Shown here: positions 42,409 to 49,479 of the stretch, in pieces
Position numbering within the stretch: the first letter of the stretch is position 1
How the letters are laid out: each line of letters begins with the position of its first letter
Program-made: the position numbers and the translations under genes
Assembly (NCBI GenBank): GCA_027488335.1
Contig: JAIYBU010000178.1
Location: forward strand, 1 to 64,000
Direction of reading: 5' to 3'
Source of the DNA: Cytophagaceae bacterium
Lineage (GTDB): Bacteria; Bacteroidota; Bacteroidia; Cytophagales; Spirosomataceae
Length of the DNA: 64,000 bases
Notes under the pieces: generated by a model
Databases searched by the model: none
What the model was told of the DNA's origin: nothing
What the model saw: the letters and a program-made list of their open reading frames with translations, nothing else

Positions 42409-42536
42409 AAGGTCGAAATGTCAATTATTAGACTTCAATATTAATCAAAAAGAACCATATTAAACATCTTTTTCCTGCTACTTTTTTCTAAAAATCATAA
42501 AGAAAATAAGTTGCAGCCAAATTTTTTTAAAAAAGT

Positions 42537-42567
42537 TTGGAATTATAAACGAAAGTAAATTTCTTTG
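42537..42567 (+). promoter_or_regulatory. Candidate promoter of the ilv cluster
   Basis: A TTG (42537-42539) lies 20 bases before TTTCTTTG (42560-42567), which differs from TAnnTTTG only at its second base. Transcription would start near 42574, about 47 bases before the leader peptide ATG. Confidence 0.4.
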
Positions 42568-42620
42568 TCATAGAAACTGTTCGCACATAGCGAATATTCG
42601 CAATTAGAGAATATTTTATA

Positions 42621-42671
42621 ATGGAAAATAACACTGTTCGTATCATCCCAATTATTCTTCTGCTCAATTAA
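42621..42671 (+). CDS. ilv leader peptide (16 residues, Ile/Leu-rich)
   Basis: The short frame encodes MENNTVRIIPIILLLN. Four Ile, three Leu and one Val make up half of the residues, and Ile/Leu run from residue 8 to 15 (42642-42665). The stop codon ends 5 bases before the antiterminator arm begins at 42677. A ribosome stalled on Ile or Leu codons would leave that arm free; one that reaches the stop would cover it. This is the arrangement of a branched-chain amino acid attenuator. The peptide itself presumably has no other function. Confidence 0.8.
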   Translation: MENNTVRIIPIILLLN

Positions 42672-42676
42672 AAAGA

Positions 42677-42738
42677 GTGGAGAAGGGTTTGCTATGAACA
42701 ACAAAAGCCTTCTTCACACCGAGTGAAGAAGGCTTTTG
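42677..42738 (+). promoter_or_regulatory. Transcription attenuator of the ilv cluster
   Basis: The terminator is a perfect 16-bp stem, CAAAAGCCTTCTTCAC (42702-42717) with GTGAAGAAGGCTTTTG (42723-42738). The upstream segment GTGGAGAAGG (42677-42686) can pair with CCTTCTTCAC (42708-42717), the same bases as the 5' arm of the terminator, with one G-T pair. The two structures are mutually exclusive. The weak point is that no long T tract follows the stem beyond TTTTG and TATT. Confidence 0.8.
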
Positions 42739-42789
42739 TATTATGAAAACGAGTATTTATGACTATTCAAAAAGCTTTTAACTTGAAAT

Positions 42790-44466
42790 ATGGAACTAAA
42801 TAAATTCAGTCGCACCCTTACGCAAGAAGTTCATAACCCTGCTGCCAAAGCCATGCTTTATGGTATTGGTTTGACAGAAGAAGATATGCAAAAAGCACAA
42901 ATCGGTATTGCAAGTACTGGTTATGAAGGAAATACCTGCAATATGCACCTTAATGGCTTGTCTGTTCACGTAAAGAAAGGTATCCAAGAAAACGGAATGG
43001 TAGGCTTAATTTTTCATACAATCGGAGTTTCAGATGGCATGACAAACGGCAATAACGGTATGAGCTACTCATTACCAAGCCGTGATATTATCGCCGATTC
43101 AATTGAAGATATTGTCGCTGCTCAATGGTACGATGGCGTAATTGCCGTTGTGGGTTGTGATAAAAATATGCCAGGAGCAATGATAGCGATTGCCCGACTA
43201 AATCGCCCAGCTATGTTAGTTTACGGAGGAACGATTCGTACTGGACAATATAAAGGTAAAAAACTCGACATCGTTTCAGCTTTTGAAGCATTGGGACAAA
43301 AATTTGCAGGAACAATCTCTGACGAAGACTACGAAGGAGTTATCAAAAATGCTATTCCAGGTGCGGGTGCTTGCGGTGGAATGTACACGGCCAACACAAT
43401 GGCTTCTTCTATGGAAGCGATGGGCTTGACTTTACCAAATTCATCAAGCTACCCAGCAACGCACGAAGGCAAAAAAGCTGAGTGTATTGCTATCGGTGCA
43501 GCCATGAAAAATATGTTGGAGAAAAACATTTGCCCTCGTGACATCATGACTCGCAAGGCGTTTGAAAACGCCATGACGATGGTAATGGTTATGGGTGGCT
43601 CAACAAATGCCGTTCTTCATTATTTGGCTATTGCAAGTGCAGCAGGTGTAGATTTTACATTAAAAGATATTCAAGATATTTCAGACCGTACGCCATTAAT
43701 TGCCGATTTAAAACCATCAGGCAAGTATTACATGGAAGATATGCTCGAAATCGGTGGTGTACCTGCTTTGATGAAATATTTGCTCAAGAAAGGTTTCATT
43801 CACGGTGATTGTATGACGATTACAGGCAAAACAATTGCTGAAAATTTAGAAGATGTACCAGACTTGGATTTCGATACACAAAAGATTATTCAACCAATCG
43901 AATCTCCAATCAAACCAACAGGTCACTTACAGATTCTTTACGGAAACTTGGCCGAAGGTGGTGCTGTTGCTAAGATTACCGGAAAAGAGGGCGAAAAGTT
44001 TGAAGGAATTGCCAAAGTCTGTGAGCGTGAAGAAGAAGTAATTGAATACTTAGAAAAAGGAGAAATCAAGGCGGGTCACGTAATCGTCATTCGTAATGAA
44101 GGCCCGAAAGGTGGCCCTGGAATGCCAGAAATGCTTAAACCAACATCAGCCGTGATGGGTGCAGGCTTAGGTAATAGTGTAGCGATGATTACTGATGGGC
44201 GTTTTTCGGGCGGAACACACGGTTTCGTAGTTGGACACGTCACGCCAGAGGCTTTTGAAGGAGGTACAATTGCTTTAGTAAAAGACGGCGATAAAATCAC
44301 GATTGATGCCGTTGATAACAAATTGATTTTGCATGTTTCAGACGAAGAATTGGCCGAACGTAGAGCTGCTTGGAAGCAAATTCCATCGGAACACACCAGA
44401 GGCGTACTTCGTAAATATATCAAAAACGTAAGTTCTGCCAGCGAAGGTTGCGTAACAGACTTATAA
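42790..44466 (+). CDS. ilvD: Dihydroxy-acid dehydratase
   Basis: IlvD dehydrates 2,3-dihydroxy-isovalerate and 2,3-dihydroxy-3-methylvalerate in valine, leucine and isoleucine synthesis. The 558-residue protein has the Fe-S cysteine motifs [28 protein letters not shown] and [14 protein letters not shown], and the C-terminal [18 protein letters not shown]. IlvD/Edd relatives include sugar-acid dehydratases. The leader attenuator in front and ilvB 57 bases behind settle the amino-acid role. The ATG at 42790 follows the attenuator by 52 bases. Confidence 0.95.
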
Positions 44467-44523: not shown

Positions 44524-46284
44524 ATGGGAAATTTACTCGAAATCGAATTAAAACAAGAAACACTTGCAGCACCTGCTCAAGCAAAAGAAGGTCAAACCTT
44601 CCTTTCGGGAGCTCAAGCCATGATGGAGTGTTTGTTGGCCGAAAGTGTAGACAATATTTTTGGTTATCCAGGTGGAGCAATTATGCCTACCTACGATGCC
44701 CTTTATGATTATATTGATAGAATAAAACATACCTTAGTTCGCCACGAGCAAGGTGCAGGTCATGCCGCACAAGGCTACGCCCGTGTGAGTGGACGCACAG
44801 GGGTTTGCTTGGTAACTTCTGGCCCGGGTGGTACGAACCTCATCACGCCAATTGCCGATGCAATCATTGACTGTACACCTATGGTTTGTATTGTAGGTCA
44901 AGTAAAGTCAAATTTGTTAGGTACTGATGCGTTCCAAGAAACAGATATGATAGGTGTAACTACACCCGTCTGTAAATGGAATTATCAGATAACTGACCCC
45001 GATGAAGTGCCAGAAATCATGGCCAAGGCCTTTTTTATTGCCAAGTCGGGAAAACCAGGCCCAGTAGTAATTGATTTTGCTCGTGATGCCCAAGCAGCTA
45101 AAATGACGAAACCTTTTGTCTATAAAAAAGTAGAGAAAATGGTAAGTTATAGCCCTCGTGTAGTACCAAAACAAGACCAAATCGAAAAGGCTGCGGAGTT
45201 AATCAATAAAGCGAAACGCCCATACATTTTATTCGGACACGGAGTTTTAATTGCCGATGCCGTTCAGGAATTACTTGATTTTGTTGAAAAAACGGATATT
45301 CCTTGTGCAAGTACTTTGCTTGGCCTTTCGGCAATGCCAAATAATCACTCTAATTATATGGGTTGGTTGGGTATGCACGGCATGTACGCTCCCAACGTAA
45401 TGACCGACGAGTGCGATGTTTTAATTGCCATCGGTATGCGTTTCGACGACCGTGTGACGGGCGATTCAACAAAATTTGCCAAACAAGCACGCATTGTTCA
45501 TATAGAAATCGACCCTTCTGAGGTTGATAAAATCAAAAAAGCTGAAGCTCCTGTAATCGGAGATGCCAAAGAAGCCTTAAAAATGCTCATGCCTTTAGTA
45601 AAAAAAGGAGATTTTACTGGCTGGAAAAATGAATTCCGTAAACTTGATGTAAAAGAATACGATAAAGTTACCCTTCGTGATTTAGGCCAAGAAGGCAAAA
45701 TCAAAATGGCTGAGGTTGTGGCTTTGCTTTCTGATAAAACGAATGGTGAAGCTTGTATTGTTGTTGACGTAGGTCAGCACCAAATGGTTACGGCACGTTA
45801 TTATCAATTCAAAAAAGCAAATTCATTCATTGCTTCGGGTGGACTCGGAACGATGGGCTTTGCAATTCCTGCATCATTTGGTGCGAAAGTTGGAGCTCCA
45901 GACCGTGAAGTTGTCGGAATCATAGGTGATGGGTGTTTCCAAATGACGATTCAAGAACTCGGAACAATTGCCCAGAGTGGTTTGGCTGTAAAAATGATTA
46001 TCTTGAATAATAATTTCTTAGGAATGGTACGTCAGTGGCAGCAACTATTCTTTGATAATCGCTACTCATTTGTAGAATTACAAAACCCTGATTTTATTAC
46101 AATTGCTCGTGGTTTCGGAATTGATGGACACACTTGTACAGAAAGAGAAAACCTGAGTAATTCATTGGATAAAATGCTCGATTCAAAGAAAGCCTACTTA
46201 CTCGAAGTTATCGTAGAAAAAGAAGAAAACGTATTCCCGATGGTTCCTGCAGGAACGAGCGTAAGCGAGATTCGCTTGGAATAA
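44524..46284 (+). CDS. ilvB: Acetolactate synthase large subunit
   Basis: IlvB forms 2-acetolactate or 2-aceto-2-hydroxybutyrate from pyruvate with thiamine diphosphate. The 586-residue protein has the expected order. The N-terminal domain carries NIFGYPGGAIMPTYDALY, the HEQGAGHAAQGYARVSGRTGVCLVTSGPG active-site region follows, and MRFDDRVTG lies in the FAD-binding domain. GDGCFQMTIQEL begins the diphosphate-binding motif, and VPAGTSVSEIRLE ends the protein. It works with IlvN, encoded 110 bases downstream across an intergenic repeat. Confidence 0.96.
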   Translation: MGNLLEIELKQETLAAPAQAKEGQTFLSGAQAMMECLLAESVDNIFGYPGGAIMPTYDALYDYIDRIKHTLVRHEQGAGHAAQGYARVSGRTGVCLVTSGPGGTNLITPIADAIIDCTPMVCIVGQVKSNLLGTDAFQETDMIGVTTPVCKWNYQITDPDEVPEIMAKAFFIAKSGKPGPVVIDFARDAQAAKMTKPFVYKKVEKMVSYSPRVVPKQDQIEKAAELINKAKRPYILFGHGVLIADAVQELLDFVEKTDIPCASTLLGLSAMPNNHSNYMGWLGMHGMYAPNVMTDECDVLIAIGMRFDDRVTGDSTKFAKQARIVHIEIDPSEVDKIKKAEAPVIGDAKEALKMLMPLVKKGDFTGWKNEFRKLDVKEYDKVTLRDLGQEGKIKMAEVVALLSDKTNGEACIVVDVGQHQMVTARYYQFKKANSFIASGGLGTMGFAIPASFGAKVGAPDREVVGIIGDGCFQMTIQELGTIAQSGLAVKMIILNNNFLGMVRQWQQLFFDNRYSFVELQNPDFITIARGFGIDGHTCTERENLSNSLDKMLDSKKAYLLEVIVEKEENVFPMVPAGTSVSEIRLE

Positions 46285-46394: not shown

Positions 46395-46934
46395 ATGACA
46401 ACATACACTATTTGCGTATTTACCGAAAATAGCATCGGCTTACTCAACAAAATCACAATCATATTTACCCGTCGAAGAATCAATATTGAATCGCTGACGG
46501 TTTCGGAAACTGAGCGTAAGGGTATTTCTCGTTTCACCATCGTTATCAAACACGAAAAACGTGAAGAAGTAGAAAAACTCGTACGCCAGATTCGTAAAAT
46601 CATCGAAGTTTTAGCGGTATTTGGTTATCTCAATGAAGACATTGTTTACAATGAAATCGCCCTTTTTAAAATTTCTACACCACTTAACGGAAAATCGGTT
46701 GATGTAGAAACCATCAATAAAGTCTATAAAGCGTGGGTCGTTTATTGGGGTCTTGACTATGTAGTCATCGAAAAGACAGGGACTGAAACTGAGATTTTTG
46801 AATTTTTCAAATACATCAAACCGCACGGAATCATCGAATTCGTTCGTTCGGGAAGAGTGGCAGTAGGTAAAACTCCTCAAGGACTAATCGAATACTTACC
46901 CGAGGAAATTACCGAATGGGAGTATTATTTGTAA
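46395..46934 (+). CDS. ilvN: Acetolactate synthase small regulatory subunit
   Basis: IlvN makes the synthase sensitive to valine feedback. The 179-residue protein starts with an ACT domain (TYTICVFTENSIGLLNKITIIFTRRRINIESLTVS), followed by KHEKREEVEKLVRQIRKIIEVLAVFGY. The second domain contains IEFVRSGRVAVGKTPQGLIEY. The ATG at 46395 lies directly against the repeat element, so its ribosome-binding region is repeat DNA (GGCTGGGGGC). Confidence 0.94.
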   Translation: MTTYTICVFTENSIGLLNKITIIFTRRRINIESLTVSETERKGISRFTIVIKHEKREEVEKLVRQIRKIIEVLAVFGYLNEDIVYNEIALFKISTPLNGKSVDVETINKVYKAWVVYWGLDYVVIEKTGTETEIFEFFKYIKPHGIIEFVRSGRVAVGKTPQGLIEYLPEEITEWEYYL

Positions 46935-47000: not shown

Positions 47001-48044
47001 ATGGCAAAATTAAATTTCGGCGGTGTTGAAGAAGAAGTAGTAACCCGTGAAGAGTACCCACTCGAAAAAGCGAGAGAGTTCTTGAAAAAACAAACTATTG
47101 CAGTAATTGGCTACGGTGTGCAAGGCCCAGGTCAAGCAATGAACATGCGTGACAATGGTTTCAACGTAATCGTTGGACAACGCCCTGGTAAAACTTACGA
47201 CAAAGCAGTTGCTGATGGTTGGGTTCCAGGTAAAACGCTTTTCAGCATCGAAGACGCATTGAAAAAAGGTACAGTTATTTGTTTCCTTCTTTCAGATGCT
47301 GCTCAAATTGCCTTATGGCCAACAGTGAAACAATACCTCAAAAAAGGTAAAACTTTATATTTCTCTCACGGATTCGGTATCACGTACAGCAAAAAAACGG
47401 GTATCAAACCACCTAAAAATGTTGACGTAGTTTTGGTAGCTCCAAAAGGCTCGGGTACTTCACTTCGTCGTTTGTTCGTGGAAGGAAAAGGTCTTAACTC
47501 ATCTTTCGCTGTTTATCAAGATGCTTCAGGTCACGCTCGTGAGACTGCTATTGCAATGGGTATTGGTGTGGGTTCTGGTTATTTGTTTGAAACTGATTTC
47601 TACCGTGAAGTAACATCTGACCTAACAGGTGAGCGTGGAACTTTAATGGGTGCTATCCAAGGTATTTTCGCTGCCCAATACGAAGTATTGCGTGAAAATG
47701 GTCACTCTCCATCAGAAGCTTTCAACGAAACTGTTGAAGAACTAACGCAATCGTTGATGCCACTCGTAGCAGAAAATGGAATGGACTGGATGTATGCTAA
47801 CTGCTCTACCACTGCTCAACGTGGTGCATTAGACTGGTGGAAACCTTTCCATGATGCTACAAAACCTGTTTTCAAGAAATTGTATCAAAGTGTAAAATCA
47901 CAAAAAGAAGCTACTCAATCAATCACTCGTAACTCTGAGCCAGATTACCGTGAGAAATTAGAAGTTGAATTAGCTGAACTTCGTGAGTCGGAAATGTGGC
48001 AAGCAGGTAAGACTGTTCGTAGCTTACGTCCAGAAAATAATTAA
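47001..48044 (+). CDS. ilvC: Ketol-acid reductoisomerase, class I
   Basis: IlvC isomerises and reduces acetohydroxy acids to dihydroxy acids with NAD(P)H and magnesium. The 347-residue protein has the Rossmann motif GYGVQGPGQAMNMRDNG, the cofactor loop GQRPGKTYDKA and the knotted domain with TDFYREVTSDLTGERGTLMGAIQGI. The last comprises the conserved Asp and Glu metal ligands. Its length marks the short class I form. The gene ends before a hairpin and a terminator that separate it from ilvA. Confidence 0.95.
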   Translation: MAKLNFGGVEEEVVTREEYPLEKAREFLKKQTIAVIGYGVQGPGQAMNMRDNGFNVIVGQRPGKTYDKAVADGWVPGKTLFSIEDALKKGTVICFLLSDAAQIALWPTVKQYLKKGKTLYFSHGFGITYSKKTGIKPPKNVDVVLVAPKGSGTSLRRLFVEGKGLNSSFAVYQDASGHARETAIAMGIGVGSGYLFETDFYREVTSDLTGERGTLMGAIQGIFAAQYEVLRENGHSPSEAFNETVEELTQSLMPLVAENGMDWMYANCSTTAQRGALDWWKPFHDATKPVFKKLYQSVKSQKEATQSITRNSEPDYREKLEVELAELRESEMWQAGKTVRSLRPENN

Positions 48045-48101: not shown

Positions 48102-48117
48102 TTTACATGATATATTT

Positions 48118-48150
48118 AAAAAGCACAGGGGCAAAATCTCTGTGCTTTTT
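48118..48150 (+). terminator. Terminator between ilvC and ilvA
   Basis: AAAAAGCACAG pairs with CTGTGCTTTTT across an eleven-base loop. Confidence 0.75.
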
Positions 48151-48151
48151 G

Positions 48152-48159
48152 TATATTTG
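48152..48159 (+). promoter_or_regulatory. -7 element for ilvA
   Basis: TATATTTG matches TAnnTTTG directly after the terminator, 36 bases before the ilvA ATG. ilvA may therefore have its own promoter in addition to read-through. Confidence 0.45.
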
Positions 48160-48195: not shown

Positions 48196-49479
48196 ATGTC
48201 ATCAACAAACACCAAGACAAAATCAGATTTTATATTTCCTGATTTAGACAATATCTACCTCGCCGCCGAACGTCTGCAAGGAGTGGCTGTGCATACCCCA
48301 TTGATGCACAATCTGAACCTTTCAGAACGCTATGGAGCAAATATTTATCTTAAACGTGAAGATTTACAGGTTGTTCGTTCCTATAAAATCAGAGGAGCTT
48401 ATAATAAAATGGCAACGCTCTCAGATGAACAACTTGACAAGGGCGTAGTATGTGCCAGTGCGGGCAATCACGCACAGGGGCTTGCGTATGCGTGCAGAAA
48501 ATTGCAAGTAAATGGTACAATCTTTATGCCTACCACCACACCCGCTCAAAAAATCAAGCAAGTGGGGATGTTCGGGAAAGAATTTGTAAAAATCGAACTC
48601 GTAGGCGACACTTACGATGATGCTTTTTATGCGGCGAAAAAATACTGTGAAGAACAAAACGCCACTTTCGTACATCCATTCGATGATTTACAAGTAATGG
48701 AAGGACAAGGAACGGTTGGGCTGGAAATCTTCAAAGACTCTAATTTTAAGATAGATTATTTGGTTTTTGCTATCGGTGGTGGCGGCTTAGCTTCGGGGGT
48801 TTCAACGGTTTTTAAGCAACTTTCGCCAAAAACAAAACTCATAGCGGTTGAGCCACTTGGTTCGCCAACCATGAAAACTGCTTTAGAAAGAGACCAAGTA
48901 GTTACGCTCGAAGAAATTGATAAATTTGTTGACGGTGCAGCCGTAAAACGTGCAGGAGACATAACGTTCCAAGTGTGTAAACAAAACCTCAACCACGAAA
49001 TTCTATTAATTCCCGAAGGAAAGGTTTGCTCTACGATTCTTCAACTGTATAACGAAGAAGCCATCGTAGCCGAGCCAGCAGGAGCATTGTCGGTTTCAGC
49101 TCTGGATTTTATCAAGGATGAAATAAAAGGCAAAAATGTAGTTTGTATCATCGGTGGAGGAAATAATGATATCACTCGAACCGAAGAAATAAAAGAGCGT
49201 TCGCTGCTTTACGAAGGTCTAAAACATTACTTCATTATCCGTTTCCCGCAACGGGCGGGGGCTTTCAAAACCTTCTTGAATGATGTGTTAAGCCCGACCG
49301 ATACTATTGTATTTTTTGAATATTCCAAGAAAACCGCTCGTGAACGTGGCCCAGCTTTAGTGGGTATCGAATTGAAACAACAATCCGACTTTCAGCCACT
49401 TATCGAACGCATGAAAGAGAACAACGTTCAGTTTGAGTACATCAACGATAAGCCCGAACTTTTCGAGTTTTTGATATAG
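48196..49479 (+). CDS. ilvA: Biosynthetic threonine dehydratase (deaminase)
   Basis: IlvA deaminates threonine to 2-oxobutyrate, the entry to isoleucine. The 427-residue PLP enzyme has YLKREDLQVVRSYKIRGAYNKM with the cofactor lysine, CASAGNHAQGLAYACR, the glycine loop AIGGGGLASG and IIGGGNND. A single ACT-like regulatory domain makes up the last 90 residues (YFIIRFPQRAGAFKTFLNDVL). This size fits the one-regulatory-domain biosynthetic form rather than the short catabolic TdcB. A terminator and a promoter element upstream suggest partly independent expression. Confidence 0.93.
   Translation: MSSTNTKTKSDFIFPDLDNIYLAAERLQGVAVHTPLMHNLNLSERYGANIYLKREDLQVVRSYKIRGAYNKMATLSDEQLDKGVVCASAGNHAQGLAYACRKLQVNGTIFMPTTTPAQKIKQVGMFGKEFVKIELVGDTYDDAFYAAKKYCEEQNATFVHPFDDLQVMEGQGTVGLEIFKDSNFKIDYLVFAIGGGGLASGVSTVFKQLSPKTKLIAVEPLGSPTMKTALERDQVVTLEEIDKFVDGAAVKRAGDITFQVCKQNLNHEILLIPEGKVCSTILQLYNEEAIVAEPAGALSVSALDFIKDEIKGKNVVCIIGGGNNDITRTEEIKERSLLYEGLKHYFIIRFPQRAGAFKTFLNDVLSPTDTIVFFEYSKKTARERGPALVGIELKQQSDFQPLIERMKENNVQFEYINDKPELFEFLI

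Follow-up and report, generated by a model that had tools for sequence, protein, structure and literature searches.

What controls the branched-chain amino acid genes ilvDBNC when the stretch between their likely promoter and ilvD holds both a 16-codon open reading frame crowded with isoleucine and leucine codons and a strong hairpin? The locus lies in the window, by which we mean the whole 64,000-nucleotide stretch of DNA analysed here. From comparison of its sequence with that of relatives, positions 42621-42739 are very probably a ribosome-mediated transcription attenuator of ilvDBNC in Emticicia-like Bacteroidota.

Elements of the ilvD leader region

The ilv genes were identified with NCBIfam equivalog models, all above their cut-offs. 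The features on which the argument draws are the following:

42536-42567, plus strand: likely Bacteroidota-type promoter, TTTG (42536-42539), 20 nt, then TTTCTTTG (42560-42567); from sequence
42589-42601, no strand assigned: palindrome AGCGAATATTCGC, putative operator; from conservation between promoter box and leader
42621-42671, plus strand: leader ORF encoding MENNTVRIIPIILLLN and a stop codon; control run at codons 8-15 (42642-42665)
42654-42665, plus strand: arm 1 (protector), within the Ile/Leu codons, able to pair with arm 2; from folding
42677-42686, plus strand: arm 2, GTGGAGAAGG, antiterminator 5' arm; from folding, spacing and covariation
42701-42717, plus strand: arm 3, terminator 5' arm, the inner part of which (42708-42717) also pairs with arm 2; from folding and covariation
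42723-42739, plus strand: arm 4, terminator 3' arm and short U-tract; from sequence, folding and covariation
42790-44466, plus strand: ilvD, dihydroxy-acid dehydratase; TIGR00110, 710 bits (cut-off 618)
44524-46284, plus strand: ilvB, acetolactate synthase large subunit; TIGR00118, 693 bits (cut-off 538)
46395-46934, plus strand: ilvN, acetolactate synthase small subunit; TIGR00119, 115 bits (cut-off 57)
47001-48044, plus strand: ilvC, ketol-acid reductoisomerase; TIGR00465, 319 bits (cut-off 226)
48117-48159, plus strand: terminator-like hairpin (48117-48151) followed directly by a TATATTTG box (48152-48159), between ilvC and ilvA; from sequence
48196-49479, plus strand: ilvA, threonine ammonia-lyase; TIGR02079, 633 bits (cut-off 441)

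Bacteroidota promoters follow the consensus TTTG-N19-TANNTTTG, which the TTTCTTTG box matches at 7/8 positions; the TTTG of this -7 box is invariant in 11 congeners, four of which have a perfect TACATTTG. Around the leader, simple scans for promoters and for terminators returned no plus-strand site; the promoter scan used is one that does not cover Bacteroidota promoters, and the terminator scan did not call the 17-bp hairpin.

The leader ORF reads ATG GAA AAT AAC ACT GTT CGT ATC ATC CCA ATT ATT CTT CTG CTC AAT TAA, and its start has no obvious Shine-Dalgarno sequence upstream. An earlier note on this DNA had described it as a 16-codon leader with eight Ile/Leu/Val residues, seven of them Ile or Leu within codons 8-15, and had placed its stop, which ends at 42671, five bases before GTGGAGAAGG; all of this is borne out by the sequence. 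Taken by itself this composition is mildly unusual, eight such residues being reached by 43/2000 nucleotide shuffles, so the case rests on comparison across leaders.

Folding of the region agrees with two alternative structures. As the earlier note had it, GTGGAGAAGG can pair with CCTTCTTCAC (42708-42717), a segment that is also the inner 5' arm of the terminator, and sequence, folding and covariation all uphold this. The terminator was rightly called perfect and its length was misjudged: it comprises 17 bp around a 5-nt loop (42701-42717 with 42723-42739), not 16 bp spanning 42702-42738. It folds at -27.2 kcal/mol (z -9.55; 0/200 shuffles as stable), the antiterminator segment at -16.0 kcal/mol (z -3.70; 1/200), and the fold of the whole leader has a z of -7.93 (0/200). 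The protector hairpin between arms 1 and 2 is present in the MFE fold and is weak alone (z -1.37; 22/200 shuffles as good). The U-tract of the window strain is short, CTTTTGTATT. When the window was searched with the 4227 families of Rfam release 15 at gathering score, only a tRNA was found, and a search of 42540-42790 with a loose E-value gave sub-threshold matches only, nothing convincing.

Which genes would the attenuator govern? Between ilvC and ilvA, the hairpin at 48117-48151 and the TATATTTG box directly behind it probably mark where ilvDBNC ends and an ilvA transcript begins. The genes under the attenuator are thus most likely ilvDBNC, ilvA having its own start. This agrees with the unit proposed in the earlier note and supports its suggestion that ilvA is perhaps partly independent; we consider ilvA probably independent of the attenuator. 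TANNTTTG boxes are no rarer than by chance (17 seen in 18 kb, 22.6 expected), so the separate start of ilvA is something we infer.

Conservation, covariation and spacing among relatives

Relatives were collected by IlvD. The search covered 58 genomes including the window's own, 49 of them with a match, and 222 genomes of the family, 209 with a match at E 1e-200; among the matches listed, 149 ilvD upstream regions were read, of which 135 belong to the family and 14 to different families within the order. By IlvD, the two nearest named records include an Emticicia MAG (97% identity; records of the window's own genome may be excluded from this ranking), which is why we call the genus Emticicia-like. 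All 11 genomes of the genus have an ATG-started, I/L/V-rich leader of 16-17 codons at the homologous place, together with antiterminator and terminator, so the short ORF and its Ile/Leu codons are kept in close relatives. The named Emticicia MAG (L155) departs from this in part: scanning upstream of its ilvD did not find an ATG leader. The ATG is altered there, and translation from an in-frame TTG, one codon farther upstream, would yield MRKNNIVLIYPVFILLV, with the run intact. In a congener whose IlvD is 99% identical to that of the window, the leader is MKSIIVLIVPIILLLI; between these two genomes the leader peptide has drifted while the branched-chain codon run is retained.

Beyond the genus, upstream regions were scanned for a leader with at least a third I/L/V and a terminator at most 45 nt from the leader stop. 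Among the matches listed, 52/135 family regions from 14/31 genera qualified, as did one genome from a different family. Runella and Arcicella records are among the named carriers, family leaders are 14-21 codons long, and in two of the 52 matches, G033 and G119, the leader is degenerate. L053, L009 and L084, as well as L094 with a TTG start, were added on closer reading. The scan did not find the attenuator in 83/135 family regions among the matches listed, nor upstream of ilvD in Spirosoma, Fibrella, Rudanella and Lacihabitans records. Much of the family thus lacks the attenuator, which was either lost or gained more than once.

The 53 leaders of the scan, less G033, gave 52 for codon counts. 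In frame, 512/863 codons after the start encode I/L/V (0.59), as against 178/811 (0.22) and 56/811 (0.07) in the other two frames. Other hydrophobic residues are scarce (F 32, A 15, M 4 and W 1 of 863). From this content, valine would be included in the set of amino acids sensed across the family. Leucine is written mostly as CTC (0.41), CTA (0.21), CTT (0.15) and CTG (0.12) in the leaders; in eight genes of the window TTA (0.32) and TTG (0.25) are preferred. Rare control codons would sharpen sensing, and pairing by arm 1 may equally require CTN, two causes that are inseparable here.

The earlier note had proposed a comparative alignment in search of covariation of both stems. Aligned over 51 leaders, from which G033 and G119 were excluded, both stems covary above shuffled and slid controls, the shuffles being of a kind that ignores relatedness of the sequences. 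For the antiterminator helix 2:3, 84.7% of cells are paired, 8/12 pairs changed on both sides (reached by 3/500 shuffles), and the covariation score is 0.335, compared with 0.167 in shuffles (0/500 as high) and 0.143 in the best slid version. Corresponding values for the terminator helix 3:4 are 88.7%, 9/15 pairs (8/500 shuffles) and a score of 0.444, compared with 0.226 (0/500) and 0.190; 37/500 shuffles match its count of further pair types, which is hence less telling. Arm-3 columns are shared by the two helices, and their changes are matched in arm 2 as well as in arm 4. Columns 39/76/94 allow both pairings in every one of the 51 sequences (G-C-G in 39, A/G-U-A in 12), and columns 40/75/95 do so in 46/51, with several combinations. 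Outer columns pair both ways less often, four of nine columns being of this kind (36/79/91, 41/74/96, 43/72/98 and 44/71/99, with only 26 to 35 of 51). These three-way changes in the core are the signature of two mutually exclusive helices. Arms were also exchanged between genera: a leader's own arm 2 pairs with its own arm 3 at a mean of -14.2 kcal/mol, as against -10.8 for arms from different genera, and own pairing was better in 1946/2444 comparisons, not in every one because several genera share arm types. When spacers were shuffled instead, it was in just 14/53 leaders that none of 300 shuffled spacers equalled the leader's own arm pairing.

The earlier note had also argued that the geometry fits ribosome-stalling attenuation, and the spacing in relatives strengthens that argument. 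Counted from where the final codon of the I/L/V run begins, arm 2 lies a median of 13 nt away (interquartile range 12-14; 53 leaders), and 14 nt away in the window, while the stop codon floats between -4 and +4 (interquartile range) relative to arm 2. Near-constant run-to-arm spacing with a floating stop is what control by a stalled ribosome predicts, since the footprint of a stalled ribosome puts its front edge just before arm 2. In lineages where the stop codon and arm 2 share bases, the run finishes sooner and is followed by a tail such as RQSV or STQTV. Taken as genus medians, run-to-arm distances are slightly tighter than stop-to-arm distances (sd 3.16 vs 3.50), or 2.29 vs 3.52 without G033. 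With arm 2 sought solely downstream of the run, 42/51 leaders fall within 11-16 nt, compared with a mean of 10.0 and a maximum of 19 when spacers were shuffled 100 times; with one leader per genus, 10/14 do so, compared with a mean of 2.5 and a maximum of 9 in 200 shuffles.

A sister element at leuA, distant loci and the upstream palindrome

A covariance model built from the 51-leader alignment was searched in the window's own genome and gave 38 matches in all at E up to 10. The ilvD element was recovered at E 1.4e-15, and an element before leuA at E 1.3e-9. The latter (G000:C72:15157-15252) is present in 11/11 congeners, own genome included (L262, L285-L289 and L291-L295), with the start of LeuA downstream in each; two of these LeuA proteins were searched and scored 590 and 596 against NF002086, 2-isopropylmalate synthase (cut-off 532). 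Its leader is TTG-started, for example MKHSSIAISLLLLLSPSV, and has five consecutive Leu in 10/11 congeners and ILLLL in the remaining one, 11-15 nt before an arm 2 sought solely downstream of the run. In this genus leuA appears to have a leucine leader-peptide attenuator of its own. Leader codon content fits the pathway controlled, with I/L/V in ilvD leaders and a Leu run in leuA leaders.

The third-best match, on another contig (C39), shows no evident long plus-strand gene downstream and was not taken as an attenuator. As a separate observation, this match (L263, G000:C39:38-129; L296-L299) occurs in 5/11 congeners as a conserved terminator, perhaps the end of a small RNA.

We also read 48 named loci whose IlvD is no more than 69% identical (L213 left out), under a looser leader criterion. 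An I/L/V leader with a terminator was found in 20/48, including Pedobacter, Saprospiraceae and Lewinella records (L190-L232). The run lies a median of 13 nt from arm 2 in these leaders (16/20 within 11-16) and the stop a median of -13.5, a spacing that, as a raw tally in which five of six Pedobacter leaders nearly duplicate one another, is suggestive. The records from outside Bacteroidota among the 48 (Colwellia, Psychromonas, an Ignavibacteria MAG and a gammaproteobacterial MAG) were all without a leader.

Between the promoter box and the leader lies the palindrome AGCGAATATTCGC, within a half-site array TTCGC-n5-GCGAA-n2-TTCGC-n5-GAGAA (42580-42611). This conserved palindrome, TNAGCGAAWWTTCGCTNA, was absent from the earlier note. 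Among the matches listed, 98/135 family regions have the palindrome at 12 or 13 of its 13 positions, compared with 0/675 shuffled regions, and L053 has it too after correct framing. It is present in lineages without the attenuator, mostly 38-70 nt before ilvD, and was not found in the ilvD upstream regions of genera g13 (0/26) or g21 (0/6), the latter with the attenuator in 6/6 regions. Genus g13, with small genomes, has neither palindrome nor attenuator detected before ilvD in its 26 regions. The palindrome is unlikely to act as an RNA hairpin, because changes such as TTCAC for TTCGC break pairing without compensation. Exact longer copies occur in some congeners upstream of gltB (assigned to its family from a partial piece, below its cut-off), of an oligopeptide symporter gene and of fbp, and between aceB and glmS. 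Four genomes outside the genus were searched for the exact 14-base sequence: three have a single copy, at ilvD, and one has none, which argues against a broad regulon of exact sites there. Lrp/AsnC proteins occur in 222/222 genomes, so that presence or absence is uninformative about what reads the palindrome; an Lrp-like protein would be a guess.

Proposed mechanism, alternatives and known systems

In the model that we propose, transcription would start just past the TTTCTTTG box, and a ribosome would trail the polymerase into the 16-codon leader. Were charged tRNA for Ile, Leu or Val scarce, this ribosome would stall within codons 8-15 and cover arm 1, its front edge just before 42677. Arm 2 (42677-42686) could then pair with inner arm 3 (42708-42717), blocking the terminator and allowing the operon to be transcribed. 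With amino acids sufficient, the ribosome would reach the stop at 42669-42671 and cover much of arm 2, arm 3 would pair with arm 4, and transcription would end before ilvD. In an untranslated leader, pairing of arms 1 and 2 would likewise let the terminator form. At a stop codon, the ribosome shields as many as 12 nt beyond it, according to a passage in PMC4833913.

Could the ORF instead encode a small hydrophobic peptide that functions in the membrane, as a type I toxin or another small protein, with its own terminator, ilvD having a separate promoter and the neighbourhood being incidental? Ibs-type peptides are short and hydrophobic with a strong hairpin downstream, and the leader, with its I/L/V share of 512/863 residues, resembles them. 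We hold this to be highly improbable, since peptide sequence and length vary greatly while the I/L/V run keeps a near fixed distance from arm 2, few other hydrophobic residues are used, arm 2 covaries with arm 3, and leucine replaces the mixed run in the leuA leader. Scarcely credible is the idea that the region is a T-box, a riboswitch or a protein-sensed leader of a known RNA family around an untranslated ORF. A structured leader with a terminator ahead of an amino acid operon would suit such an element; no Rfam family matches at gathering score, however, and the in-frame I/L/V content and the codon-to-arm spacing are sensible only with a translated ORF.

It is also very unlikely, in our assessment, that a protein at the palindrome provides the main control, with leader and terminator a minor or constitutive brake. 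Such an arrangement would account for a palindrome found in 98/135 regions, including lineages without the attenuator, and for the congener copies upstream of gltB, the symporter gene, fbp and aceB. It would not explain why selection kept competing helices and the spacing of control codons, nor why g21 retains the attenuator (6/6) without the palindrome. The two layers are compatible, and the palindrome points to a second, unnamed control layer beside ribosome-mediated attenuation.

On a broader scale, we give an even chance to a picture in which ilvD leader-peptide attenuation is old and widespread in Bacteroidota, leader and arms being rewritten in each lineage while the codon-to-arm distance of about 13 nt stays constant, and in which it sits, in this family, atop an operator-like palindrome, perhaps part of an uncharacterised nitrogen/carbon regulon (ilvD, gltB, peptide transport, fbp and aceB). 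Bacteroidota initiate translation largely without Shine-Dalgarno pairing. If attenuation operates as proposed, a ribosome would closely trail RNA polymerase in such a phylum, and a well understood control circuit would be firmly placed where it has been hinted at and little described. With the codon-to-arm distance, close coupling of transcription and translation becomes readily testable in Bacteroidota, and leaders can be sought that sequence similarity fails to reveal. The ilvD and leuA leaders of one genus are a natural pair for tests of codon specificity.

Leader-peptide attenuation is a textbook mechanism, and the ilv/leu attenuators of enterobacteria (ilvL-GMEDA, ilvB and leuL) are the obvious comparison. 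Like them, the element described here has a short leader enriched in the pathway's own amino acids, a stop codon near the antiterminator, and an antiterminator and terminator that share one arm. It differs in its phylum, in matching no Rfam family, in leaders of 14-21 codons, in having no obvious Shine-Dalgarno sequence and in the ilvDBNC gene order with ilvA apart. Bacteroid-trp (RF01692), which we take to be a leader-peptide attenuator, has no match in the window and serves a different operon. It is nonetheless akin, being listed as a candidate cis-regulatory RNA of Bacteroidetes and linked by name to trp genes in PMC2864571. For Flavobacterium psychrophilum, a section of PMC9723704 reports strong clues for leader-peptide attenuation before amino acid operons: phylum and proposed mechanism are the same and Rfam hits are likewise lacking; pheA and hisG are among the structured 5' elements, and ilvD and leuA are not named in that section. 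Bacteroides sORFs reminiscent of leader peptides are mentioned in a passage of PMC7366714. The Corynebacterium ilvBNC attenuators, as outlined in PMC10272879 and PMC11857589, share a branched-chain operon with an upstream short ORF or hairpin attenuator; they belong to Actinobacteria and are presumably unrelated in sequence. No report of ilvD attenuation in Bacteroidota was found among the literature matches listed, whose coverage omits most subscription journals, so that absence is unproven. Given this and the missing Rfam match, we file the element as a new instance, at ilvD in Bacteroidota, of a known control circuit documented mainly in other bacterial groups.
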